The position numbers and the translations under genes were made by a program. The notes below the pieces were generated by a model. That model saw nothing but the letters and a program-made list of their open reading frames with translations, was not told where the DNA came from and did not search any database. This document shows positions 3,160-38,925 of a stretch of 39,675 bases of DNA, one piece after another. Source of the stretch: a virus; IMG/VR virus record IMGVR_UViG_3300036768_001035, positions 1-39,675 of that record. One strand, given 5' to 3'. Position 1 is the stretch's first letter. Every line of letters begins with the position of its first letter.

Positions 3160-3163
3160 ATGC

Positions 3164-14596: not shown

Positions 14597-17500
14597 TCAG
14601 TTAACCCCCTTTCTCGCGAAGGCTTTGTCGTATATATCCAGCCCGGTCTTAGTTGCACTACGCACATCGTTGGTATAGATATGTTGGGTCAGGTTGCCAC
14701 GACCAGCTTCGGCAATCTTCTTGAGCCAGGTCACCGCTTCGCGCAGGACAGTGACGGTTTCCTTGTCGGAGCCGCGCACAACGAGCGCGCCATCCTGCGG
14801 AACCACGTACTCGCCGGCCTCAACGACACCGGCTGGCTCATAGCGATGGCCTGTACCAGTATACCCACCTGCGCCGAATGAGGGCAGTACTTCCCCGCCC
14901 AGGCTATAGGTGCGAGCAGCAGCAGGACTGCGGGCGGGCGTTGCACTGGAGCGCGACAGTGCAAGTTCGTGGCGGCTGATAGCAATGGCTGCTGCGTTTT
15001 CGGCCTGCGTTACCTGCCGGGCTGCTGCCACCCCTTGTCGCAGGTGATTGACAGCCTCATGCAGTGCGTTGTTGTATTCACGCATGGCCTGCACGACTTT
15101 GGGTAACAGTTCACCTGTCCTGGCCTGATACTGCGTGTACTTGTTGGCTTCATTGGCAGCGCGGCTCATGTCGGTCAAATGTTGGTTCAGTGCAGCAATC
15201 TGAACCTGAGCGTCATGCGAGCGCTTCATCATCTCTTCATGCTGCTTGAGGTCGACTAGCGCTTCGGCCCGCGACAGTGCACGGCTTTTCATTTCCAGTT
15301 CGCGGTTCTGCATAATGAACTGGCGTTCTTGCTCGTACTTCTGGCGCTGCAACTGCATGGACTGCGCCTCAAGCGCCCGGTGCTGCTCGAAGTGCTGGCG
15401 CTCCATGTTCAGCGATTCTTGCTGCCACTGTTTGGTCTGTGCGAAGTGAGCGCGTTCCCGAGCAAACGATTCTTCTTGCCATGTACGCTGTTCCCGAGCG
15501 CGCGCCTGTTCCCGGTCATTCTGCCCGGCCTCCATCGCGTGCGAGATGACTGCGCGCTCACGTTCGCGCATCAGGTCTACCCGCTCGCGCCCACGCGCGT
15601 AACGGATGTTCCGGTCAAAGTCCTCCATCTGCCAGCCGAAACTGATTTCGCTTCGGGCGCGACTGTATTGGAGATCCTGCATCTGCCATTCGGCATGCCG
15701 TCTGGCATGGGCCTGGCTAATCGTCATCTCTTGCTCTTGCCAGGCCGTCTGCATTGCTAGCTGCCGCTGTCGCAGGCCAAACTGCTCATTGAATTGCTGG
15801 CCTTGCAATGCGAAGCGCGCCTGGCTGATGCCAAGCTCTCTCCCCTGCATCTCATACTGGTAGTCTTGCTGTCGCCAGGACAGCCGGCGCTGCGCGTCCT
15901 GCAAGGCCCACTCGCCGCCGCTGGCAATCGCATCAGCCACATACTGGCCGCCGCCAGCCGCCCGGATAGCGCCTGCCTGCGCTGCAAGACCTTCCCCAGT
16001 CATAAAGGCCCGGCGACGAGCAAGCTGCTGGGTCTGCATCTGGTATTGGTACTGCTCAAGGTCAAACTGAATGGTGGCAATCTGCGCCTGTGTTTCCACC
16101 ATGTTCATGCCGGAGATTTTGCTGTAATCCATCCCGGCCAGTTGCGCATACTTCGCACCGATACCACCAAACTTCGTGTCGATCTGCATGTATGCCTGGC
16201 GCTTGGGGGCCTGGATCTCCTCATCGTACCCGGCTTCCATACCCTTCGTGCCCCCATATCTGCCAGTCTGCACGCTGTACAGATATTGGTTCTGGGCGGT
16301 CATGCCCTGGTTGGCGACATACTGACTGAGGGCAATCGGGTCGCCACCGATCCGCGCCATAAGCGCCTGGAACTGCGGGCCGCTCATGGATGTCGCGGCT
16401 CTCTCGAGCATAGACCGGTAATCCGAAAGCTGTGCGGTGGTGTTGTAGGCAGCCTTCGACTCAAGATAGTTCATCGCCTGACCATATTGCACGATCTGGC
16501 GGTTCGCCTCAAAGATCTGCTCGTCGGTCTTGGCAGTCTGAGCTCGGCGCTGCAATTCCATATACGCCCCGGTCTCGGCGCTCAGGCCTGTGATGGCCTT
16601 GACATTGATCACCGCCTGTTCTGCATTGAGAACAAGCTGCTGGTTCTGCGGGCCAGCACCTTCAAAGCTTTCGAGCGTTCTGGTCTTTAGTCCGCCTAAG
16701 CGCGCCATCTGGTTGTACTGTGCCATGACCCGCGCATCCTGCTCCATTGCACGGTACGTAGGCAGGTCTTCGCCAGACTTGTCAAAGAGCGCCTGCTGCT
16801 GTGTTTGCAGCGCGCGCCATTCGGGACTGCCGACGCGCACATTGCCAGCAACGGCCAGCGCCTCGACCATATTCATCGGGTTCACGCCGCGAGTTGCCTG
16901 CTTGATGTAGTTGCTGATGGCAGCCTCATCGACGGTCTCAGTATCCCATTTCTGCCCGAATTCGCTCATCCACTGGAAGGCAGCCGATTTCTGAGCAGAA
17001 CTGGCAAATGGCGAAACTTTCTGGAACAACGTCGCCAGACTGCTGGCTTGCTGTGTCGTGACGTCATACCCAATGATCATGGCGTTCGCCAGACCAGCGA
17101 CAGTTCCAGCATTTTGCTGGCCCGCTAGCAGTTCGTTAACTTTCCCGGATTTGTTGAGAGCTTCCAGGTACGCCTTGTACCCGCCAGCGCCCTGGTCGCT
17201 AAAGATGAGCGATGACCCCGCATAGCCAGCCTGGGTCATATCGATGCCAAACTGGGCATCAATTTGACGCTTGGCCTCTGCCTTTTGCGCAGGCGTCAGG
17301 TTGGGGTTGTTGTCGATGTCAGCTTTCTGGTCGGCGATGCGCCTGACATCATCGACGGAATATGTTGGTGTCTGACCGGCGGCACGTTGCGCTTCAACTA
17401 CTTGCCCGATCTGCTTCATGATGCCAGGTATGACGCGCTGATAATAGACACCGCGCTGCTGATCGCCGTACCATTCGCCAATCTTGAACAACTGCTGCTG

Positions 17501-20500
17501 GAAGTTCAGAGAGGCAATATTTTCTGGTGTCAGGCCCGCAATTTGCGCCAGGCTCGCTGCGTCGCCCATGACATCGACACCGGCAGCTGCGCCACGCCCC
17601 AGGATGTCAGCGGTTTTCAGAATGCTTTCCGCGCCTTCTGGCTGTGCCCAGGCCCCTTCCCAGCCAATTTCGGCTGCGAGCGCCGCGATGCTCTCCCTTT
17701 GATCATCCTTGAGATACTTGTAGCGTTCCTGATTGCGCTTGAACAATTCGGTAATGTAATTCGAGCGCAGCAGCGGGTCGTTGTACAGATCAATCTGGTG
17801 CCGTACTTCGCGGCCATACTTGTCCAGGAATTTCCTGACGCGGTTGGGATACTCCTGGCTTGTCTGGTAAAGACCTTTGTCGATCATGTCGTTGATAGTA
17901 TCGCCATAGTCTTCGATCCAGACTCTTTGAGATGAATCGCCAGTAAAGCGCTCTTTGATCAATTGCCAAAGCCGGCCTGTTTGCGCCCCAAAATCGCGCT
18001 GCTTTGTAGCGTCGAGATACCTGGACACCGCCTCTAACGGCGCAGCGGTCTCATAAGAATGTATCTGTCCGACGAAACTGGCTCCTAACCCGGCTGCTGC
18101 ACCTATACCCACTGCAATTGGATTCCAGCCTGTGAGCAAGCCCAGAGCAGCGGCTCCCATCATACCTGTCTGGATTGTCGCCTGCCCTGTCGCCACGTTC
18201 TGCGTGCCAAGCCAGCCAGTCAGCATATCTTGAATGCCGCCGATAGAGTGCTCAGTCGCACGCCCAAGTGCGAGTTGCCGATTATGCTGCAAGATCATGG
18301 GATGTACCGCTTGCGAGTACATCTCCATGCCGACGCCGCTCATGCCACCATAGAAGTCCGTGCCGATCTGTGCACGAGCGATGCCCGCCTGGTACTGCAA
18401 ATACTCCTGACGCGCACCGAGCAGTGGGTCAATAAATTCTTGCTGGAAGCGCCGGATGTTGTATCCCTGGCTGATCATCTGGGCAGGCACAGCCAGTGTA
18501 CGGCCAAGTGCCATTGCCGCATCAAACTTGAGGCTGCCCTCCTCACCGTACCAGCCCTTCTCGATGGCTCTTCGCATGGCAGCTTGCCCAGCGCGGCCAT
18601 GCTGCAAGAATGGCTGGAACTTTTCCATCAGACTAGGCTGGTCAGCCTCTGGCTCGAAGAAGCCATCGACGTTCCTTGCTGTGCGAACGCGCTGGGCCAG
18701 GCTCTTGCCCTCAATGTCACGCCCGTAGAGAGCATTGCCGATTTGCCGCAGCCAGGCATTCCCGCCAGCTTCTTCGTAGGCAGCCAGGAATTTGGCATTG
18801 TTGGGATCCTCTGGGTTGGCGCGGGCTTCTCTGACGCGATCCCGGATTTGGTTGAATGCTTTCTCGCTGATTTCGATTTGCGCCGCTTGCTCTTTGGAAA
18901 GCTTGCCGCTCTGCTCGGTCAGCTTGCGCATTGTGTCGCGCAGAATGCTGAACGACTTGTTGAGGATGTCAACATTTGCGGCCAGGTCAGCGCCACCAAG
19001 ATCTTCGCGGCCCGGCTTGGGCGGCCTGCCAGCAGATTGGCCGCGAGAAGAGCGAGCGGTTCTGGGGATATCGGCCAACCCTTCTGCCAGGCGAGTACCT
19101 GTTTCGCCTGATAGCATCTCATTGACCTGACCGATTTCGGTTTGCGTCCAGTGTATTCCGCCAGTGCGCTCACCAGTAGCCGGATCCAGTGGACCGCCCA
19201 GAAAAGCGTTGACAATTTCATCAGTGACTGCGCTGGATGTACCGGCAGCCTGTTCACGCATGGCGCTCGCCAAACCGGTAAGAAATGTACGGCGGTCTTT
19301 GCTGATTTTGTCAAAAAGTTTGGCATCTTCCGATGTAAGCTCTTCACCGTGCTCCATCTTGGCAAGGATGCTTGCTAGTTTTTCGGGGGCAGACCGCAAG
19401 CGTTTCGCCGCACTGAAGATAGCAAGCTTGTCATGCGCAATACTAGCTGTCGGATCATCGGTGCCCAACTCTGGTTTGGTGGGCTTATCTACCGCTTTGG
19501 CGCGTGAAGTTCTGGGGATATCGGCCAACCCTTCTGCCAGGCGAGTACCTGTTTCGCCTGATAGCATCTCATTGACCTGACCGATTTCGGTTTGCGTCCA
19601 ATGTGTGCCACCCGTGCGCATGCCGGTAGTAGGGTCAAGTGGACCGCCCAGAAAAGCATTTACAATTTCCTCGATAACTGCATTGGATGTACCGGCGGCC
19701 TGATCGCGCATTGCTCCTGACAAACCAGCAAGGAATGTACGTCTATCTTTACTGATTTTGTCAAACAGCTTGGCATCCTCAGACGTGAGTTCTTCACCAC
19801 GTTCCATCTTGGCAAGTATTCCAGCCAGCTTTTCCGGCGCAGAGCGCAAACGCTTAGCTGCACTAAAGATCGCAATCTGATCATGCGCGATGCTGGCTGC
19901 GGGGTCATCGGCACCCAACTCTGGCTTAGCAGACTTACCAGTTGATTGGCCGCGAGATGTTCGGGGAACATTTGCCAGTGCTTTCGTCAGGCGAGTACCT
20001 ATTTCGCCTGACAGCATCTCGTCTACCTGACCGATCTCGGTTTCTTTCCAAAATGTTCCGCCTGTTCGCACGCCCGTCACTGGATCATGCGGGCCGCCCA
20101 TGTAAGTATTGGCAATTTCATCGGCAATCTCATTGGATATGCCTAATTCTTGCGCCTGTATGGCGCCCGACAAACTCATGCTAAACACGCGCAAGTCTTT
20201 GTCGATTTTGTCAAACTCCCTGGCATCTTCGGGTGTGAGTTGCTCGCCAAGCTCAAGCTTGGTGAGCATAGCGGTCAGCTTCTCTGGCGCAGACCGCAAG
20301 CGTTCAGCTGCGCCAATGATCACGTTCTTGTCGTGAGCAGTATATTCTTTTGCTCCCTTCATGATTTTGACCGGGATAGAGAAGTTGCGCTCTGTGACAC
20401 GAACGCCACCCCATTTCGCGATATTCACATCCCGCATCCCCGAAGACTTGTCCCAGAGCATGGATGATTGCCATCCAGGAGGCATCGGCGGCTGTCCTCC

Positions 20501-23500
20501 ACCTGGCAGCAAAGGAGGACGGCTGCCTCCCGGAGGTACAGGAGTGCGTCGCTCGGTTTTGCTGTCGGCAACATTGATCGAAACGCCTTCCTGCAATGCG
20601 GAACGGGCCACGCTTTGCTTGGTTGGCATTGGCAGAGGTTCTTCGGCTTCGGCACGCATTTCATCGACAACTGCCAGGTCCTCTGCTGTTGGCTCATACG
20701 GCCCATACTTTTCATCTATCTCACCGGCTTCAGCGAGATCGGCTTCTGCTTCAGCCAAGTCAATCCCCTTTGGCCGAGTGACTGTAGGCTGTGCGGCACC
20801 AGATGGTACTTGCACCTGCTGTGCTGGCGCGGGCGGCAGTTCGGGGGCTGGCGGCGTCACAGCTGCTGTAATCGGCGACAAGAGTTCGGGCGCGACGGGC
20901 GCAGCACTCGCGCGTGACTGAGCTTGCAGCGCTTCCCAGGCGGCCTTGCTGATAAACTTGCCAGTCTGGGGATGCTTGTACCGGGCCCGCTTTTTCGGCG
21001 TCGCTGGTTCAGGTGCAGCGGGAACGGGTTCCGGTGTGGTAGGTGCGGGCACGACTGGTTCGAGCGGCAACGTGGCAGGCGCCGGGGGTGGCGCGACGGG
21101 TTCGGAGATAGCAGGCGGAGGTTCCGTCGCCGCAGGTGCAGGCGCCGCGAGTTCGGCTGTTGGAATAGATGGCTGCGTTGGCAGCGCCTCGATCTCAGGC
21201 GCAATGGGCGTCACCGCCTGGGCTGCCTCAACAATTTCCGGTGGAGCCTGCGTCAGCAATTCTGGTTCCACAGGTTGAGCAGCAAGCATAGCTTCCTGCT
21301 CGCTCGCAGCGTTGTTGCGTGCACCTGGAAAGTCGCTCAGGCTAAGGCCAGACAGACCCAACCCCGACAACAGACGGTTAAATATACGGTTGGCTGTAGC
21401 GAAGCGCCCCGTCTCTGGGAATAAACGGCCACCCAAACCAACGAGCATCCTTGCCATGCGCGATGCAGGCTGTTTGTCTTTCGAGAGCAACGCCGTCACA
21501 TCCTGGATGCGTTGCCCCATTGGGGCCGCTTGCCGAAGGACATCATTGAGCGAGTTATTGGTGAACTGACTACCCTTTTGAACTGTCTTATGCGCTGCCA
21601 TCTGCAAAAGGCCTGCCGCTGGCGCATTACCCAGAGCATAGTACGAGTGCGACTGGCCCTCGACAGTGCCGCCAGCCATCTTATTCAGGTAGACTTGCAG
21701 GTCGCTGGCAATACTCCAGGTGTTTGCACCTTCAGCGCGCCCCGCTTCAATTTGCTGGCGCACATACGCACGTTCTTCGGGCCCCATGTTCGATGAGGAC
21801 AGGAAATCGGCAGCCAGTTCTGGCGACAGTTCGCTGGCATTGATCACGCCCTGGATCAGGTTGGTCGTGGCAATCGCAAAGCTATCAGACCGGTTTTTCT
21901 GGTTGCGGTTCATGCCAGTGAGAGACTGCCCCGGCCCGTAAAAGCCAGTGACCAGATTGGTACGGGAAACATTCATCAACTGGCGAACGCCCTCACTGAC
22001 TGGCTTCTTGTCAAGCGGGTTTTGGTAAGTGGCAGCCACAAACTTCGAGAGGGCTGAGTACGCCTGATCGTCGCCGTGCGCAATCATAGTGGCTTGCGCC
22101 ATACGCCACCAGTTGTAAGTTGCGCCAATGTCAATACCAGCCTGGAACAGACGGCCTGCATTGCCCGCGCTCATCTCTCGCCGGCTCAGAACAGCCGGTT
22201 TCTTGGTCAGATAGTTGACCGCCTTCTCACCGTAGTTCCATAGATCAACTAAGGTCCCAAGCTCGCCTGCCGGATGTTCAGCAGCAGCGCGCTCGATGGC
22301 CTCACTGCTCGTGGCTTCCAGCATAGTGCGCCCGGTAATGGCGCCTTTCTCATCATATTGGTAACTGCTGGTCGTGACCTGCGTGGCCCTGTCTGCATCG
22401 GTATCGCCACCGCCGGCCTGCGTGAGCGCCTCACTTTGGATAATACCGTTCCGGCGCACTCTCTTCTTGCTGCCCCGCAGCTGAAGGACACCCTCACTGT
22501 AAACATTCGTGACAGCACTATACTGTGTCTCCGGGGAGGAGCTTGGCAGGCGCACGGTCAAATGCGTCGCCATCGGCTTGCCTTCCCGACGAAGCCGGCG
22601 CAACTCCCTCACAATCCATCGACGGTTCTCCGGCGTATCAGCAGCCCCCTGCTCGACAGCCCGCGCCATCTCCATATCCACTATTGTCTGGAAGTGCATA
22701 AACTGCTCGTTCGCAGCAACACCTTCCTCGGTGGTGTAGGTATAGTTACGGGCAGAACTCGATGACACGCCCAACAGATTGTGCCTGAATCCAGGAGTAC
22801 TTGCGAGCTCATACTGCTTACCAACGAGCCCAGCAGCCTGTTCTTCTGCGTCTGAGTAATCGAGCGACTGAGCGCGACTGTTCAGGATCTGGTCAGCCAG
22901 GTTGACATATCCGCGTATCAGTGGCGATGCTTCGTCGCCCTCCTCATTGGTCGCTGTGAAATGGCCCATCGCATTCGGTGAAGCAAATAGTCTGCCGCCC
23001 ATCGAGAGCATGGTATCGCCGAAGGTCTCTTGCAGCGCTGCCATACGCGCCTGCTGCATCTCGGCCTGCGTCGGCTTTTCTCCGCTTTCGCCAATCAGTC
23101 TGTTGTATGCTTGCAGGTACTGCTGAGCCTGTTCTTCGCTTGCCTGTTCCAGCGTGGCGACATTCAGGCCCTCTGCTGAGCCGATGCCCGCACCGACCAG
23201 TGCGGCACGAGCAACTTGCAAATAAGCTGCATGTCTTTTCGCGCCAACTGTCATGAGGAAGGAGGTATCCCCTTGAATATTGGCAGCCCAACCCGTCAGC
23301 ATCTCGAAGTTCAGATTGGCAGTATCCCGGGACTGTTCGACGCGCGGGTTGGTCAGGCGCTTGTCGCGTACAAAGGCCACGTTGGTGATAATTGCATAGC
23401 GCCCGTCAGACAGTTCGCGTGGCGCAGCAGCCAGCACGCTTGGCAGCTTTTCGGGTGAAATACCATAGGCCTGGCGGAAAGCCGCCAGACGTTCACGATC

Positions 23501-25825
23501 TTCCTTGATCAGCGTATGTAGTTCGGAAGCCGTAACGACCCGGTTGACCTGTGCGACGTCGATGTTTTCGCGCACGAACTGACGATATGCATCCAGTAGG
23601 AACGGGCTTAGCTGTTCATCATAGCGGTCATGCGCATGTGGGTCGAAATCAACATACTGGCCGAGCTCTCGAAATTTCGCCAGATGTTCATCAATGGCTT
23701 TGTTGTACTCATCAGGCGACATCGCGCCGAAATGTGCTGCCGCATCCTGCAAGACGTCGCCGGAAAACTGCTCAATGAGGTCGGCATCGCGCATCCGCTC
23801 ATCCAGACCTCGGAAATCCGACACAACCGCATGGCTCTTGCGGCCTGACTTGAGCGAAATGGCATTGCCAGAACGAATAACGTCCTCAAAAATAATTTCA
23901 TCGCCTTCTTGCCGCCAGCTACCATATGTATGCTCGTCCCAGTTGCCGCCAATATCAACCGGTACACCATTAATATCAATCGTTTGCCCACGACGGCGCA
24001 TCACCTCCCGGCCTGCATCCAGGGCGGCCCTGGTTTCGTCCGACAGAACAACTTGGCCTTCGGCGTTCGGGGCAATTTTCACTCGATAGGTCGTGCGCTC
24101 CCAGGGCGTCCAGCCACCAACGGTCTCCTCATTGAGCAGCGACTGGCCGCTGCCCAACCCCATACCGCCAAAGACCGTGACCGTGTCGAGCGCATAGCCA
24201 GTGCGTGTCAGGCCGGAACGGTTTGTTTTGATGGGATCTTCGTGCCATTTACTCCCAATCACACCAGGCCGCGGTCCCCATCCAACCATTTCCTGCACAT
24301 CGCCTAGCTGGGCACGTTTGGCAGCCTTGAGCGGATCACTTTCGCCCGTCAGCAGGTCACCGCTCCTGGTTATCGCCCAACCGGGAATATCGCCCATCGA
24401 TGGCGTGTAAATCAGGTGCGATGAGTTCGGCCCACGAATTGTGAAGTCTTTGCCATAATATTGCTCGGGCGAGGCGATATGTGTGTATCCCTGCTCGCGC
24501 AGCGAGCGGTGGTACTCCTGGTCGCTGTCCCGTATGTCGAGCGGTTGGTCGCCTGTGTAATTGGGATCAACTTTCACTCTCGCATCAGCGCCAAAGTAGG
24601 AAGCAATGCGTGCCCGCAGGCCGACGCCTTGCATCCCAATCATTTCCGGGTTCTGCCGGACACCGCGCGGGACTTCTTCGTCGTGCTCTGATGAGAGAGT
24701 GGGCATGCGCTGCATCGGGTCGCGGTTGCCTGCGATGACACGTGCAAAAGCATCACGCTGCGCTTCCAGCGAGGCCGGATCAATAATGCGCTCTCCAAGC
24801 CGATGCACGACATCAATCTGCTGGTCGTCAATGCGACCACGCCCAACTGTTCCGGGCTTCAGCCCTGGATCGACACTGATCAGCCGCGTCCAGTTTTGCG
24901 ATTCGTCGTGGGGGTGTTGGTATGTAAGTTCAATGTAGCGCTCATTGCCAATATCAACCCAGCGACGCTTGTAATATTTTTCGTCGTCTCCCAGAACAGG
25001 TGCAATGACCTGCTTCGCATAATTTGCCAGAGCCTGTCGCCGTTCCAGGCGCATGGCTGTTTCACGTTCGGCGAAAGCCGGATTTTCGCTGATGGCATCG
25101 AGGCGCCGCCGCATCGAGGTCCGGCCCGCTTCAGATTCCAGATCATAGCGCCTGATGTCCTCTGGCAACATATAGCCGAACTTGACGGCGGATTCGGCGA
25201 GTGAGCGTAAGCCCTCCGTAGTACGTAGTGGGTTTGGCCGTGCTTGCGGCTTCGATTGGGCGCGTAGTTGCCGCAACCATTCATCGAAAGAAGGAAAGCC
25301 AGGCGCATTTTCGACAGGTTGGGGCGTGCGCGACTGCCAGTCATTAATATTCGTGCCGCCAAAATCCTTGGCTGGCATGTGCGCCGGGCCAGGAAACATT
25401 CGCTGGCTTGGAGTGAGCAGGTCATCCAGGCCCCTGCTGGCTCGCTTGATGCCCGCCAATATCTCATCGTCAGTCAGATGGTCAACATTGATATCATCGA
25501 CCAATTTGCCTATCCGCGTGTTGTAGAGAGTGCCTTCTATCGGGTCGCGAATGAGGATAGTGCCTTCTGGGTATAGCGGGCTCTCGGCGATGATAACGTT
25601 TTCTAGCAAGCTCCGGCTGTAGACAATGTCTAGCGGAAGCTGCGTCAGCAGTTTGTATTCTAGCGATTGGGGGTCTGGCGGAATTATCGGCTCGGTCTGG
25701 GAAGCACCCGTCCCACTGCCAATCGCGCCCATCTCAGACGCAGTGGCATTGGCATTGCCTTGCAATGCTTCCCACTCTGCTTTGCTGATAAATCTACCAG
25801 TCTTGGGGTGTCTGTACCGTGCCAT
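14597..25825 (-). CDS. Tape-measure protein with N-terminal two-barrel RNA polymerase-like region
   Basis: 3742 residues from ATG 25825 (AAGGA eight bases ahead; a TTG at 25852 is less likely). Residues about 1-30 carry RYRHPKTGRFISK. Residues about 540-700 resemble the beta-subunit barrel of RNA polymerase: GLGSGQSLLNEETV, RRGQTIDINGVPVDIGG, then LKSGRKSHAVVSD with K659 and K663 in the place of the catalytic lysines. At 1141-1145, GGGDTDADRA fits the DxDxD metal-binding loop of the beta-prime barrel, preceded by VRLPSSS as in GRxP. A Pro/Ala linker (about 1515-1610) leads to a second RYKHPQTGKFISK copy at 1615 and the tape-measure proper. That part has three 150-residue repeats (about 1826-2275), a hydrophobic segment near 2556-2587 and a long coiled coil (about 3315-3540). 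A tape-measure/RNA polymerase fusion is known in Thermus phage P23-45. Tape-measure role is confident; polymerase is probable. Confidence 0.8.
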   Translation of the reverse strand: MARYRHPKTGRFISKAEWEALQGNANATASEMGAIGSGTGASQTEPIIPPDPQSLEYKLLTQLPLDIVYSRSLLENVIIAESPLYPEGTILIRDPIEGTLYNTRIGKLVDDINVDHLTDDEILAGIKRASRGLDDLLTPSQRMFPGPAHMPAKDFGGTNINDWQSRTPQPVENAPGFPSFDEWLRQLRAQSKPQARPNPLRTTEGLRSLAESAVKFGYMLPEDIRRYDLESEAGRTSMRRRLDAISENPAFAERETAMRLERRQALANYAKQVIAPVLGDDEKYYKRRWVDIGNERYIELTYQHPHDESQNWTRLISVDPGLKPGTVGRGRIDDQQIDVVHRLGERIIDPASLEAQRDAFARVIAGNRDPMQRMPTLSSEHDEEVPRGVRQNPEMIGMQGVGLRARIASYFGADARVKVDPNYTGDQPLDIRDSDQEYHRSLREQGYTHIASPEQYYGKDFTIRGPNSSHLIYTPSMGDIPGWAITRSGDLLTGESDPLKAAKRAQLGDVQEMVGWGPRPGVIGSKWHEDPIKTNRSGLTRTGYALDTVTVFGGMGLGSGQSLLNEETVGGWTPWERTTYRVKIAPNAEGQVVLSDETRAALDAGREVMRRRGQTIDINGVPVDIGGNWDEHTYGSWRQEGDEIIFEDVIRSGNAISLKSGRKSHAVVSDFRGLDERMRDADLIEQFSGDVLQDAAAHFGAMSPDEYNKAIDEHLAKFRELGQYVDFDPHAHDRYDEQLSPFLLDAYRQFVRENIDVAQVNRVVTASELHTLIKEDRERLAAFRQAYGISPEKLPSVLAAAPRELSDGRYAIITNVAFVRDKRLTNPRVEQSRDTANLNFEMLTGWAANIQGDTSFLMTVGAKRHAAYLQVARAALVGAGIGSAEGLNVATLEQASEEQAQQYLQAYNRLIGESGEKPTQAEMQQARMAALQETFGDTMLSMGGRLFASPNAMGHFTATNEEGDEASPLIRGYVNLADQILNSRAQSLDYSDAEEQAAGLVGKQYELASTPGFRHNLLGVSSSSARNYTYTTEEGVAANEQFMHFQTIVDMEMARAVEQGAADTPENRRWIVRELRRLRREGKPMATHLTVRLPSSSPETQYSAVTNVYSEGVLQLRGSKKRVRRNGIIQSEALTQAGGGDTDADRATQVTTSSYQYDEKGAITGRTMLEATSSEAIERAAAEHPAGELGTLVDLWNYGEKAVNYLTKKPAVLSRREMSAGNAGRLFQAGIDIGATYNWWRMAQATMIAHGDDQAYSALSKFVAATYQNPLDKKPVSEGVRQLMNVSRTNLVTGFYGPGQSLTGMNRNQKNRSDSFAIATTNLIQGVINASELSPELAADFLSSSNMGPEERAYVRQQIEAGRAEGANTWSIASDLQVYLNKMAGGTVEGQSHSYYALGNAPAAGLLQMAAHKTVQKGSQFTNNSLNDVLRQAAPMGQRIQDVTALLSKDKQPASRMARMLVGLGGRLFPETGRFATANRIFNRLLSGLGLSGLSLSDFPGARNNAASEQEAMLAAQPVEPELLTQAPPEIVEAAQAVTPIAPEIEALPTQPSIPTAELAAPAPAATEPPPAISEPVAPPPAPATLPLEPVVPAPTTPEPVPAAPEPATPKKRARYKHPQTGKFISKAAWEALQAQSRASAAPVAPELLSPITAAVTPPAPELPPAPAQQVQVPSGAAQPTVTRPKGIDLAEAEADLAEAGEIDEKYGPYEPTAEDLAVVDEMRAEAEEPLPMPTKQSVARSALQEGVSINVADSKTERRTPVPPGGSRPPLLPGGGQPPMPPGWQSSMLWDKSSGMRDVNIAKWGGVRVTERNFSIPVKIMKGAKEYTAHDKNVIIGAAERLRSAPEKLTAMLTKLELGEQLTPEDAREFDKIDKDLRVFSMSLSGAIQAQELGISNEIADEIANTYMGGPHDPVTGVRTGGTFWKETEIGQVDEMLSGEIGTRLTKALANVPRTSRGQSTGKSAKPELGADDPAASIAHDQIAIFSAAKRLRSAPEKLAGILAKMERGEELTSEDAKLFDKISKDRRTFLAGLSGAMRDQAAGTSNAVIEEIVNAFLGGPLDPTTGMRTGGTHWTQTEIGQVNEMLSGETGTRLAEGLADIPRTSRAKAVDKPTKPELGTDDPTASIAHDKLAIFSAAKRLRSAPEKLASILAKMEHGEELTSEDAKLFDKISKDRRTFLTGLASAMREQAAGTSSAVTDEIVNAFLGGPLDPATGERTGGIHWTQTEIGQVNEMLSGETGTRLAEGLADIPRTARSSRGQSAGRPPKPGREDLGGADLAANVDILNKSFSILRDTMRKLTEQSGKLSKEQAAQIEISEKAFNQIRDRVREARANPEDPNNAKFLAAYEEAGGNAWLRQIGNALYGRDIEGKSLAQRVRTARNVDGFFEPEADQPSLMEKFQPFLQHGRAGQAAMRRAIEKGWYGEEGSLKFDAAMALGRTLAVPAQMISQGYNIRRFQQEFIDPLLGARQEYLQYQAGIARAQIGTDFYGGMSGVGMEMYSQAVHPMILQHNRQLALGRATEHSIGGIQDMLTGWLGTQNVATGQATIQTGMMGAAALGLLTGWNPIAVGIGAAAGLGASFVGQIHSYETAAPLEAVSRYLDATKQRDFGAQTGRLWQLIKERFTGDSSQRVWIEDYGDTINDMIDKGLYQTSQEYPNRVRKFLDKYGREVRHQIDLYNDPLLRSNYITELFKRNQERYKYLKDDQRESIAALAAEIGWEGAWAQPEGAESILKTADILGRGAAAGVDVMGDAASLAQIAGLTPENIASLNFQQQLFKIGEWYGDQQRGVYYQRVIPGIMKQIGQVVEAQRAAGQTPTYSVDDVRRIADQKADIDNNPNLTPAQKAEAKRQIDAQFGIDMTQAGYAGSSLIFSDQGAGGYKAYLEALNKSGKVNELLAGQQNAGTVAGLANAMIIGYDVTTQQASSLATLFQKVSPFASSAQKSAAFQWMSEFGQKWDTETVDEAAISNYIKQATRGVNPMNMVEALAVAGNVRVGSPEWRALQTQQQALFDKSGEDLPTYRAMEQDARVMAQYNQMARLGGLKTRTLESFEGAGPQNQQLVLNAEQAVINVKAITGLSAETGAYMELQRRAQTAKTDEQIFEANRQIVQYGQAMNYLESKAAYNTTAQLSDYRSMLERAATSMSGPQFQALMARIGGDPIALSQYVANQGMTAQNQYLYSVQTGRYGGTKGMEAGYDEEIQAPKRQAYMQIDTKFGGIGAKYAQLAGMDYSKISGMNMVETQAQIATIQFDLEQYQYQMQTQQLARRRAFMTGEGLAAQAGAIRAAGGGQYVADAIASGGEWALQDAQRRLSWRQQDYQYEMQGRELGISQARFALQGQQFNEQFGLRQRQLAMQTAWQEQEMTISQAHARRHAEWQMQDLQYSRARSEISFGWQMEDFDRNIRYARGRERVDLMRERERAVISHAMEAGQNDREQARAREQRTWQEESFARERAHFAQTKQWQQESLNMERQHFEQHRALEAQSMQLQRQKYEQERQFIMQNRELEMKSRALSRAEALVDLKQHEEMMKRSHDAQVQIAALNQHLTDMSRAANEANKYTQYQARTGELLPKVVQAMREYNNALHEAVNHLRQGVAAARQVTQAENAAAIAISRHELALSRSSATPARSPAAARTYSLGGEVLPSFGAGGYTGTGHRYEPAGVVEAGEYVVPQDGALVVRGSDKETVTVLREAVTWLKKIAEAGRGNLTQHIYTNDVRSATKTGLDIYDKAFARKGVN
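19001..20350 (-). repeat. Three tandem 450-bp repeats inside the tape-measure gene
   Basis: The DNA words for RLRSAPEKL (ggcgc/ggggc anchors at 20286, 19836, 19386) and for GLADIPRT (19960, 19510, 19060) recur at exactly 450-bp spacing, so each unit is 150 residues. Protein units share RLRSAPEKL, EDAxxFDKIxKDxRxF, GGP.DPxTGxRTGG, TEIGQVxEMLSGExGTRL. Units 2 and 3 (the two at lower coordinates) are nearly identical over long stretches, and the first is more divergent. The 450-bp, in-frame period points to duplication that lengthened the tail. Confidence 0.9.
20965..21300 (-). other. Pro/Ala-rich linker coding segment between the RNA polymerase-like and tape-measure parts
   Basis: This stretch encodes about 110 residues dominated by Pro, Ala, Glu and Thr (LLTQAPPEIVEAAQ, PAPAATEPPPAISEP, TPEPVPAAPEPATPKK) with no predicted structure. 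It ends at a second copy of the RYKHPQTGKFISKAAWEALQ motif found at the N-terminus. Such a low-complexity hinge, followed by a repeat of the start motif, marks the border between two protein modules. Confidence 0.65.
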
Positions 25826-26162
25826 CTTCGTCATCCTTGGCGAGGACGGCAAGCTCGTCGGCCTGCCGTTTTGCCTTGAACCGTTTTTCGGCTGTGATGC
25901 ACGCTTCGAGGGCCAGAATCAGGAGGTGCGGCTGGTCCAGGTAGCCGCCTTCGCAGGGGAAGGGTATCGGGCCATTTTCGCCGCCAAAAAGCCGGAGCTT
26001 CCTGAGAAGAAGGTAGGGCGCCGGGATTTCTGGCGCCTCATCGACATCCATCAGGAGTAGTTTCGCTGTGTCCTGCTTCGCAGTGGCCTCTGCCCTCTCG
26101 ACCTGGTACGAGAGATAGCGGATTACAGCGTCCTCAAGCTCACGGATGGCGGCGTCTATTCC
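25794..26162 (-). CDS. Tail assembly chaperone, frameshift extension (GT-type, -1 frame)
   Basis: This frame has no own ribosome site (its first ATG at 26051 follows CTACTCCTG) but is open from just before the G-gene stop. Continuing the upstream G frame in -1 gives a 266-residue fusion: 144 residues of G plus about 122 residues starting GIDAAIRELEDAVIRYL and ending DGTVQTPQDW. The added part is helical (VERAEATAKQDTAKLLLMDVDE, LLILALEACITAEKRFKAKRQADEL). In siphoviruses the gene pair before the tape measure makes G and GT chaperones by -1 frameshifting, and the fusion recruits tail tube protein onto the tape measure. The 3' end overlaps the tape-measure start by 32 bases. The slip site is inferred; see 26156-26166. 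Confidence 0.65.
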   Translation of the reverse strand, partial: GIDAAIRELEDAVIRYLSYQVERAEATAKQDTAKLLLMDVDEAPEIPAPYLLLRKLRLFGGENGPIPFPCEGGYLDQPHLLILALEACITAEKRFKAKRQADELAVLAKDDEDGTVQTPQDW

Positions 26163-26686: not shown

Positions 26687-28156
26687 TTACGACTGCGTGG
26701 GCAGCGGATAGGCAGCAGTGTCGTTGACGAGAATCCATTCGGTGTACTCGTCACCGGGATTGGGAGCCAGCACAGTGCAGCGGTAATCCTGGCTCAGGAT
26801 ACCACCACCCACCATACGGACTTCGCTCGCGACCTCCCAGACCGCTTTACTGGCGCGGATGGTCAGCGATTCGGGCGTGTTCTTGCCGGGGATATTCCCA
26901 GGCGACTCCACGCGAACCTCAAACGCATAGTTCCCGCCACTCTTGACCGTCTCGAAGGGCTGCGGGGTCCAGTCCGTACCCTTCACCACGCCCGTGTAAA
27001 CACGCTCGTACAGTTCAGGGTCGTACCACTTATAGGTGAAGCGCAGTGACAGTACGCGGCTCCGAACGATGATGTCATCCATGAAATACGAGCCAGTGAC
27101 TGCTTCTTCCCGCATGCTGGTCAGGTTGTTGACCCACTCGACAATCACGCCCACGACGGGCAGTTCGTCGGGCGAAATCGTCGGCAGCTTGAAGTACCCC
27201 TTGCAGGCGACGGGCACGCTGGCAGTATCCTCAAAATTGTTGGCGTACAGCCAGCTATCCGGGTGATTGTCCCATTTCGGAACACGCCCGATGAAGTCTA
27301 CACGGCTTTGCACCAGGCCCGTCTGCGGGATAATCATACGCAGGCTGGCGACCTTGCAGTCGTGCCCGGTCAAACCCTTCGGGCGGATGCCATTTTTGCC
27401 TGGGATGTGCTTGCGCACTGTCATCCAGGGCAGATCATCATTCGGGGCGCGGGTGAAGGTGTGTGTATACACACCTGCCTCCGGCGTATTGGCTACTGTC
27501 GTAACCTTACCGAGCGCGCCAAGCAGCAGATACCCAAGACTGCCGCTCAAGCGCGGGTTGATGGTCGCGCCACCCGCCAGGAACACCAGAGTCTTGTAGT
27601 CGCCAGTAGGAACGGCGATACCGCCAACTTCCAGCGGGAAGGTTTCCTGGTTCTGCGCAGCCTCAAAGTTGATGTCTACTGCACGGTGGCGGTAGAACGG
27701 AACATCGCTTTCGTTGTACGGCCCAGCATTTTGCCCGCCGCTGAAGGCGGTCTTGGTCAGGTTAGCGCCGGTCACAGAAAGGGCCAGGCTGTTGCCAGCA
27801 GTGCCCGCAACCTTCGCCGTCAAGAAAACAGTCTGGTTTTCGGCTTCAGCATCGACATCAGCATTAGCCGTCGTGCCTGTTCCGTACAGCGTGCCTTCAC
27901 CAGTGTCATCATTGATCGCGTGGGCCAGGTTAGCCATCGACGCCGCGATAGTTGCGCCGATCAGCACATCGTTGGCCGCCGCAAGAGTCGTGACGAACGT
28001 GTAGGTTTTGGCGCCAACTGTCACGGTATTGCCATTGCTGATGACACCATTGGCCGCAACCAGCCCCTGAGCCTTCATCGCCTTGACGGTTCCATCGCCA
28101 TAGCCAACTGCTTGCGGGCCAAAGCTGAAAATACCCTGTTGGGCAGTAATAGTCAT
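26687..28156 (-). CDS. Major tail tube protein with inserted domain
   Basis: 489 residues from ATG 28156 (GGAGG eight bases ahead; a GTG nine bases earlier is possible). The first ~30 residues (MTITAQQGIFSFGPQAVGYG) and residues about 150-489 form the tube protein. Between them is an inserted domain: NGNTVTVGAKTYTFVT...NDVLIGATIAASMANLAHAIN...AEAENQTVFLTAKVAGTAGNSLALSVT. This ~110-residue beta/alpha module is common in phage tail and capsid proteins, usually as a surface decoration. Location directly upstream of the chaperone pair and tape measure supports the tube assignment. Being the structural major tail gene, it is followed by its own dyad element and a hairpin, which may set expression relative to the chaperones. 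The exact family is not named. Confidence 0.75.
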   Translation of the reverse strand: MTITAQQGIFSFGPQAVGYGDGTVKAMKAQGLVAANGVISNGNTVTVGAKTYTFVTTLAAANDVLIGATIAASMANLAHAINDDTGEGTLYGTGTTANADVDAEAENQTVFLTAKVAGTAGNSLALSVTGANLTKTAFSGGQNAGPYNESDVPFYRHRAVDINFEAAQNQETFPLEVGGIAVPTGDYKTLVFLAGGATINPRLSGSLGYLLLGALGKVTTVANTPEAGVYTHTFTRAPNDDLPWMTVRKHIPGKNGIRPKGLTGHDCKVASLRMIIPQTGLVQSRVDFIGRVPKWDNHPDSWLYANNFEDTASVPVACKGYFKLPTISPDELPVVGVIVEWVNNLTSMREEAVTGSYFMDDIIVRSRVLSLRFTYKWYDPELYERVYTGVVKGTDWTPQPFETVKSGGNYAFEVRVESPGNIPGKNTPESLTIRASKAVWEVASEVRMVGGGILSQDYRCTVLAPNPGDEYTEWILVNDTAAYPLPTQS

Positions 28157-28202
28157 TTCAACCACCTCCGCGTATCTTCCATACGCTTGCTATGCAAACC
28201 CA

Positions 28203-37219: not shown

Positions 37220-37340
37220 TTGTACAGATCCTCATATGTTGGCACAAGCCCAATTCGCGTTTAGCAGGACACCAGGAGAGCAAGGCGCGTGTGCGTGCCT
37301 GGTCGATGGCGTGAGCGTGGGTGGCGGGGGAGAGCACAGG

Positions 37341-37681: not shown

Positions 37682-37745
37682 GAGGGGGGCGTGGGACATT
37701 TGTCCCACGCCTTAAGGCGCGACCCCCGTCCCAAGCCGGGGGCTT
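37682..37745 (+). repeat. Structured intergenic spacer, copy 1
   Basis: Just after the stop of the first small gene: GAGGGGGGC, then GCGTGGGACA (37689-37698) pairing with TGTCCCACGC (37701-37710), then CTTAAGGCGC. After this, CCCCCG (37723-37728) pairs with CGGGGG (37737-37742) around TCCCAAGC. The second stem is followed by a short T-rich tail and might be a weak terminator. Two further copies follow at 38321 and 38858 with compensating changes. Confidence 0.8.
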
Positions 37746-38320: not shown

Positions 38321-38386
38321 CTGAGGGGGGCGTAGGGCTACCAAGTCCTGCGCCTTAAAGCGCGGCCCCCGTCCCAAGCCGGGGGA
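38321..38386 (+). repeat. Structured intergenic spacer, copy 2
   Basis: CTGAGGGGGG, then GCGTAGG (38330-38336) pairing with CCTGCGC (38347-38353, one G-T wobble), CTTAAAGCGC, and GGCCCCCG with CGGGGG around the same TCCCAAGC loop. Compared with copy 1 the first stem keeps pairing although bases differ. It is followed by TTCTTAG. The gap 38309-38426 holds no ORF. Confidence 0.8.
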
Positions 38387-38857: not shown

Positions 38858-38925
38858 TGAGGGAGGAGTGGGACAAAGTCCCGCTCCTTAAAGCGCAGAC
38901 CCCGTCCCAAGCCGGGGTCATTTTG
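38858..38925 (+). repeat. Structured intergenic spacer, copy 3
   Basis: GAGGGAGGAG, then GGAGTGGGAC (38865-38874) paired with GTCCCGCTCC (38878-38887, one wobble), CTTAAAGCGC. After this, GACCCCG (38898-38904) pairs with CGGGGTC (38913-38919) around TCCCAAGC, followed by ATTTTGTTT. The loop and CTTAAAGCGC are conserved in all three copies while stem bases covary. Confidence 0.8.

Follow-up and report, generated by a model that had tools for sequence, protein, structure and literature searches.

The window analyzed here, an IMG/VR virus record of 39,675 nt, is a 39.7 kb genome fragment in which the minus strand encodes a single 3,751-residue tape measure protein (TMP). The gene (14597..25852, minus strand) is counted from a TTG at 25852 in the open reading frame (ORF), and translation likely begins at an ATG at 25834 or 25825. 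Residue numbers given below count from the TTG and are 9 lower when counted from the ATG at 25825. The TMP gene comes after a tail-protein-like (major-tail-like) gene (26687-28165) and two small ORFs, and it is the longest in a structural module that also contains terminase, portal and major capsid genes. Judging from these gene neighbors, the gene length and a TMP-type C-terminus ending in GGYTGTGHRYEPAGVVEAGEYVVP, the assignment of the 3,751-residue protein as the TMP holds. Residues 1-832 recur with 100% identity in another contig (L001), which makes it improbable that the start of the ORF arose through misassembly.

Within this uninterrupted ORF, an N-terminal RNA-polymerase-like region (approximately residues 205-1500; 21353..25240, minus strand), which holds all of the candidate motifs described below, leads through a linker recognized by its Pro/Ala-rich composition (approximately residues 1501-1799; 20456..21352, minus strand) into the tape portion (approximately residues 1800-3751; 14597..20455, minus strand), which is marked by three 150-aa repeats and the TMP-type C-terminus. 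The repeats lie at the start of the tape as three tandem 450-nt units (19052-20338) with 68-84% identity to the reference copy. We also observe a duplicated tag, with one copy at the TMP N-terminus (ARYRHPKTGRFISKAEWEALQ; 25759..25828, minus strand) and a second within the linker (RYKHPQTGKFISKAAWEALQ / ARYKHPQTGKFISKAAWEALQ, residues ~1623-1643; 20923..20992, minus strand). The two copies share 77% DNA identity, and the second protein match has an E-value of 1.9e-9. Because the tag is found at both sites, the tape may once have begun at the second copy, in which case the polymerase would have been joined in front of it later.

In scans of viral and genome contigs, the only homologues are the identical fragment in L001 and one divergent relative, a 79.9 kb IMG/VR contig (IMGVR_UViG_3300028842_000330) that was found with a terminase query. 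A tblastn search of 50,697 phage records gave no homologue, and the family is known from two sequences only, the TMPs of the window and of the relative. The two phages share 51% identity in terminase, 45% in portal, 53% in capsid and 52% in the tail protein. The relative's TMP (3,475 residues), likewise a single uninterrupted ORF, is 32% identical to the window TMP over its whole length, with matches to window residues 225-1198 (30% identity, E = 9.7e-68) and 1198-1375 (E = 1.8e-10); over the polymerase-like region as a whole, identity is ~29%. Several other features of the relative were noted. Residues 1496-1618 of its TMP (L009, G001:C1:57000-72000) match PDDEXK_1 with 23.0 bits (cut-off 22), so that a PD-(D/E)XK nuclease-like segment separates the polymerase-like region from the tape, where the window TMP has its Pro-rich linker. 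The terminase gene (L006:9986-12181) carries an intein-like insert of ~140 residues within the Walker A motif (GGMGC...HNSGKT), while the capsid frame (L006:15621-17278) starts ~127 residues late and has, ahead of it, a reverse-strand ORF resembling a homing endonuclease, suggesting that the capsid gene is interrupted by an intervening element.

The preliminary description of this locus had proposed that the first ~1500 residues of the TMP carry features of a two-barrel RNA polymerase (RNAP), and the motif strings that it quoted are all present in the minus-strand ORF (25852..14597). The candidate catalytic loop, DTDAD (residues 1150-1154; 22391..22405, minus strand), occurs as described in the string GGGDTDADRA with RLPSSS ahead of it. 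DxDxD is found exactly once in each TMP, and the two occurrences (DTDAD in the window and DVDAD in the relative) align within a shared GGDxDADR, such that G1148-G1149-D1150-x-D1152-A1153-D1154-R1155 is common to both proteins and all three aspartates, the alanine and the following arginine are invariant. By itself, a DxDxD is weak evidence, as the number expected from composition is 0.31 for the first 1,500 residues and 0.49 for the full-length TMP. The RxP element (R1101-x-P1103; 22544..22552, minus strand) is also invariant and lies 49 residues ahead of the loop. Downstream, a bridge-helix-like IGATYN (residues 1242-1247; 22112..22129, minus strand) corresponds to MGMAYN in the relative, with G1243-x-x-Y1246-N1247 shared. 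It is followed by a possible trigger loop start, SKFVAATYQNPLDKK (residues 1269-1283; 22004..22048, minus strand), whose resemblance to the crAss sequence GFLAASVDNVKDP was judged by eye and is weak; here, S, K, F, A, YQ and LDK are invariant in the pair (S1269-K-F...YQ..LDK).

Upstream of these elements, residues 560-690 (GMGLGSGQ ... VIRSGNAISLKSGRKSHAVVSD; 23783..24175, minus strand) form a candidate second double-psi beta barrel (DPBB-B), in which G563/G565/G567/G569/Q570, R660-S661-G662, K668 and K672 are invariant in the pair. K668 and K672 (23837..23851, minus strand) are the candidate active-site lysines. Together with D1150, D1152 and D1154, they are the residues that had been singled out as K659/K663 and D1141/D1143/D1145 in the lower numbering, and they are unchanged in the relative. 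The strings initially labeled as beta-type, GLGSGQ and QTIDINGVPVDIGG, are present as stated and are only partly conserved between the two proteins. The candidate catalytic barrel (DPBB-A) spans residues 1030-1165 (22358..22765, minus strand), the region into which the best, weakly scoring match to a profile of 16 known RNAPs falls in both proteins. Against a background identity of ~29%, the invariant signature residues are K668, K672, R1101, P1103, G1148, D1150, D1152, D1154, G1243 and N1247.

For comparison, we assembled P23-45 gp96 and gp64 with their relatives, YonO with its relatives, and phi14:2 with four other crAss-like RNAPs. Side by side, an RxP before the loop is common to YonO, crAss, gp64 and gp96, a glycine two positions before the first aspartate is usual, and [ILVM]G..(.)N follows the loop in all of the known RNAPs compared except gp96. 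The window sequence reads RLP...GGG-DTDAD-R...IGATYN and that of the relative RNP...SGG-DVDAD-R...MGMAYN, while the corresponding bridge motifs are IG/VG..AN in crAss, IGEYSN in YonO and LGRVEVN in gp64. The SPbeta YonO family has RSP...DNDGD-K and IGEYSN, but these are free enzymes with no tape fusion, and YonO itself is without the glycine two before the loop. The crAss-like phi14:2 gp66 (PDB 6VR4) shares RxP, a TGS-DxDxD followed by a basic residue and a VG/IG..AN bridge motif, and it is a virion protein, although not a TMP. The non-virion gp64 of P23-45 (PDB 8F72) has RxP, G-x-DxDxD and LG...N in the same order, yet it is a free 616-aa protein with DYDGD that is not found in virions. None of these three gives a significant profile match to the window family. 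Alanine at the fourth loop position had been taken as a possible mark of a new branch, a suggestion that we reject: crAss-like enzymes carry isoleucine or valine there (DFDID, DFDVD or DYDID), and a residue other than glycine is a feature that phi14:2 gp66 shares with the window protein.

The ordered signature R.P, G.DxDxD and [ILVM]G..(.)N is present in most of the crAss-like, YonO-family and gp64 polymerases fetched. Shuffling the first 1,500 residues of the window TMP reproduces it in 5/4000 cases, and shuffling the N-terminal region of the relative does so in 8/4000. These fractions are not clean p-values, because the window had already informed the choice of spacing ranges. Among 1,014 long ORFs, the other matches are known RNAPs and one contig that had been chosen for GGDxDADR, the sole non-RNAP. 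As a DNA pattern, GGDxDADR occurs in 89 IMG/VR contigs, mostly in chance frames, and only the relative is genuine by tblastn. When the catalytic-barrel profile is run against the two TMPs, the top match in both is the DxDAD site, which is equaled or bettered by 33/500 shuffles. For known RNAPs scored without their own family in the profile, the corresponding counts run from 0/500 to 70/500 shuffles (YonO 69, Perkons 70 and crAss-like L119 20). A very divergent RNAP could thus produce such a score, which taken alone is not significant.

Pfam, PHROGs and NCBIfam reveal no polymerase in the window TMP, PDB sequence searches and PF05183 give no significant match to it, and an HMM of the bridge/trigger region has no match. 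The comparison with the P23-45, YonO and crAss polymerases that had been recommended to substantiate the fusion came out at noise when performed with hhalign profiles, and an early match between the gp96 barrel and residues ~390-434 was dropped as chance. The fusion proposal is supported by ordered, conserved motifs common to crAss-like, YonO and gp64 enzymes, and none of the sequence searches is significant. Significant profile similarity to known two-barrel RNAPs, which we do not find, is not strictly defining: known RNAP families also miss each other in profile comparison, as with crAss versus gp64, and gp96 itself was reported to have no detectable similarity to known RNAPs apart from DFDGD (PMC10770324). 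AlphaFold, the other check proposed, was run on a two-sequence alignment and returned no fold for residues 215-1400 (pLDDT 32.5) or 1015-1330 (pLDDT 40.0). These low values, which we attribute to the presence of only one divergent relative in the alignment, are uninformative in either direction.

The closest architectural parallel is gp96 of Thermus phage P23-45 (PDB 8H2M, 8H2N), a TMP-fused virion RNAP that provides an experimental precedent for such a fusion (PMC10770324). Its family is characterized by presence in the virion and by binding to pre-early promoters. As in gp96, the RNAP-like region of the window protein is N-terminal in a giant TMP, an RxP lies ahead of the DxDxD loop, and a long tape follows. 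In contrast, gp96 has DFDGD where the window has DTDAD and is without the IG..N motif. With hhalign, the window family scores 0.1% against gp96 or gp64, versus 89-92% (E about 1e-6) for the positive control of gp96 against gp64; the best local alignment with gp96, which is not significant, pairs RLP...DTDAD with RNP...DFDGD. The portal, capsid and tail proteins of the window have no detectable relation to those of P23-45, and the terminases are alike only at the general terminase level, so we reject the idea of the phage as a P23-45 relative. Of the kinship originally suggested, the position of the RNAP-like region within the TMP remains, while nothing in the profile comparison supports placement as a branch of the P23-45 class. 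The distance from the candidate lysine to RxP is ~430 residues here, ~190 in gp96 and ~140 in gp64, where the lysines were paired from the gp96/gp64 alignment. As gp96 has a flat architecture and lacks a clamp, the longer connector of the putative window enzyme raises the prospect that it may retain one. Because the portal, capsid and tail proteins show no detectable kinship with those of P23-45 and the connector is so long, the tape-fused lineage described here is probably separate from that of gp96.

What the sequences show directly is a set of motifs in a defined order that is kept in the relative and is covalently fused to a TMP. We favor, with a probability of roughly 70%, a reading in which the first ~1,500 TMP residues make up a single-chain two-barrel RNA polymerase from the broad phage/RdRP-like clade that includes the crAss-like, YonO and P23-45 enzymes. 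The principal competitor is a virion domain of another fold, structural or enzymatic, in which the motifs are coincidental and GGDxDADR is the metal site of something else. Such a domain would account for the lack of database, profile and structural matches, for a DxDxD that alone is expected 0.31 times per 1,500 residues and for a GGDxDADR pattern that appears in IMG/VR mostly in chance frames. Coincidence is a poorer account of an ordered signature that is conserved in both TMPs and rare in shuffles, whose elements recur in three known RNAP families, some of whose members score just as weakly when held out, and we regard this alternative as unlikely.

A further option is that the region has the two-barrel fold and is no longer a polymerase, or that it serves a role other than early transcription, such as DNA ejection or channel formation. 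The Phe/Tyr of DFDGD is replaced by Thr/Val and the Gly by Ala, the trigger-like motif is without the AVDxxK form, and sigma-70-like promoters precede early genes of the relative, all of which would fit a polymerase that has lost its activity or its role. The retention of three aspartates and two lysines across a ~29%-identical pair speaks against such a loss, however, and crAss enzymes show free variation at the fourth position of the loop (DFDID, DFDVD, DYDID). We therefore consider this option quite improbable. Under the polymerase reading, the window and its relative most likely represent a second lineage of tape-fused virion polymerases. A broader proposal is more tentative, and we place it slightly short of even odds: an RNAP from a different branch of single-chain two-barrel enzymes would have become fused to the tape of a phage lineage unrelated to P23-45, in an event separate from the one that produced gp96, and, given the nuclease-like domain in the relative, TMPs would be a general vehicle that brings several enzymes in along with the genome.

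By analogy with gp96, we infer a two-barrel fold, catalytic activity, presence in the virion and a role in early transcription. Carried within the TMP, the polymerase would sit inside the tail tube and, like gp96, would exit together with the tape, reaching the cell before the DNA does and making the first phage transcripts while the genome arrives. Some genes outside the structural module of the relative have TTGACA/TAnnnT (sigma-70-like) promoters, and since these include early genes, the host polymerase may share early transcription. The early region appears to be absent from the window fragment. In the relative (L100, L101, L106, L010), a partly palindromic TTAGG(N)CTAA occurs in approximately eight copies, several of which overlap sigma-70-like promoters, making it a candidate operator. 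The window has a 44-nt motif of its own (consensus TTTCAAGCAATCCTTGACAG...TAAACTGGTGGCG), which starts at 37222, 34021, 31817, 26688 and 8291 on the minus strand, with a weaker copy at 3161 on the plus strand; none was seen in the scanned parts of the relative. The copies are mostly intergenic and ahead of late structural genes. Under a matrix built from the five minus-strand copies, these reach 50-54 bits, whereas shuffled sequence reaches 9 at best. With a TTGACA core and no TATAAT, the motif may act as an unusual kind of late promoter. Near the window end, a 57-nt element with a GC-rich, terminator-like hairpin (CCCCCGTCCCAAGCCGGGGG) is repeated on the plus strand (37685-37741, 38328-38384 and 38861-38917).

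In the literature searched, P23-45 and its Thermus relatives are the only phages with a described tape-fused virion polymerase. If the reading favored here is correct, the polymerase-tape fusion would be a repeated solution for transcribing an incoming genome, and two-barrel RNA polymerases would prove more diverse than is currently known. The window phage and its relative would also provide a second system in which to study the passage of a large enzyme through a tail tube, and the nuclease-like domain of the relative offers a direct way to test whether the tape serves as a carrier of enzymes.
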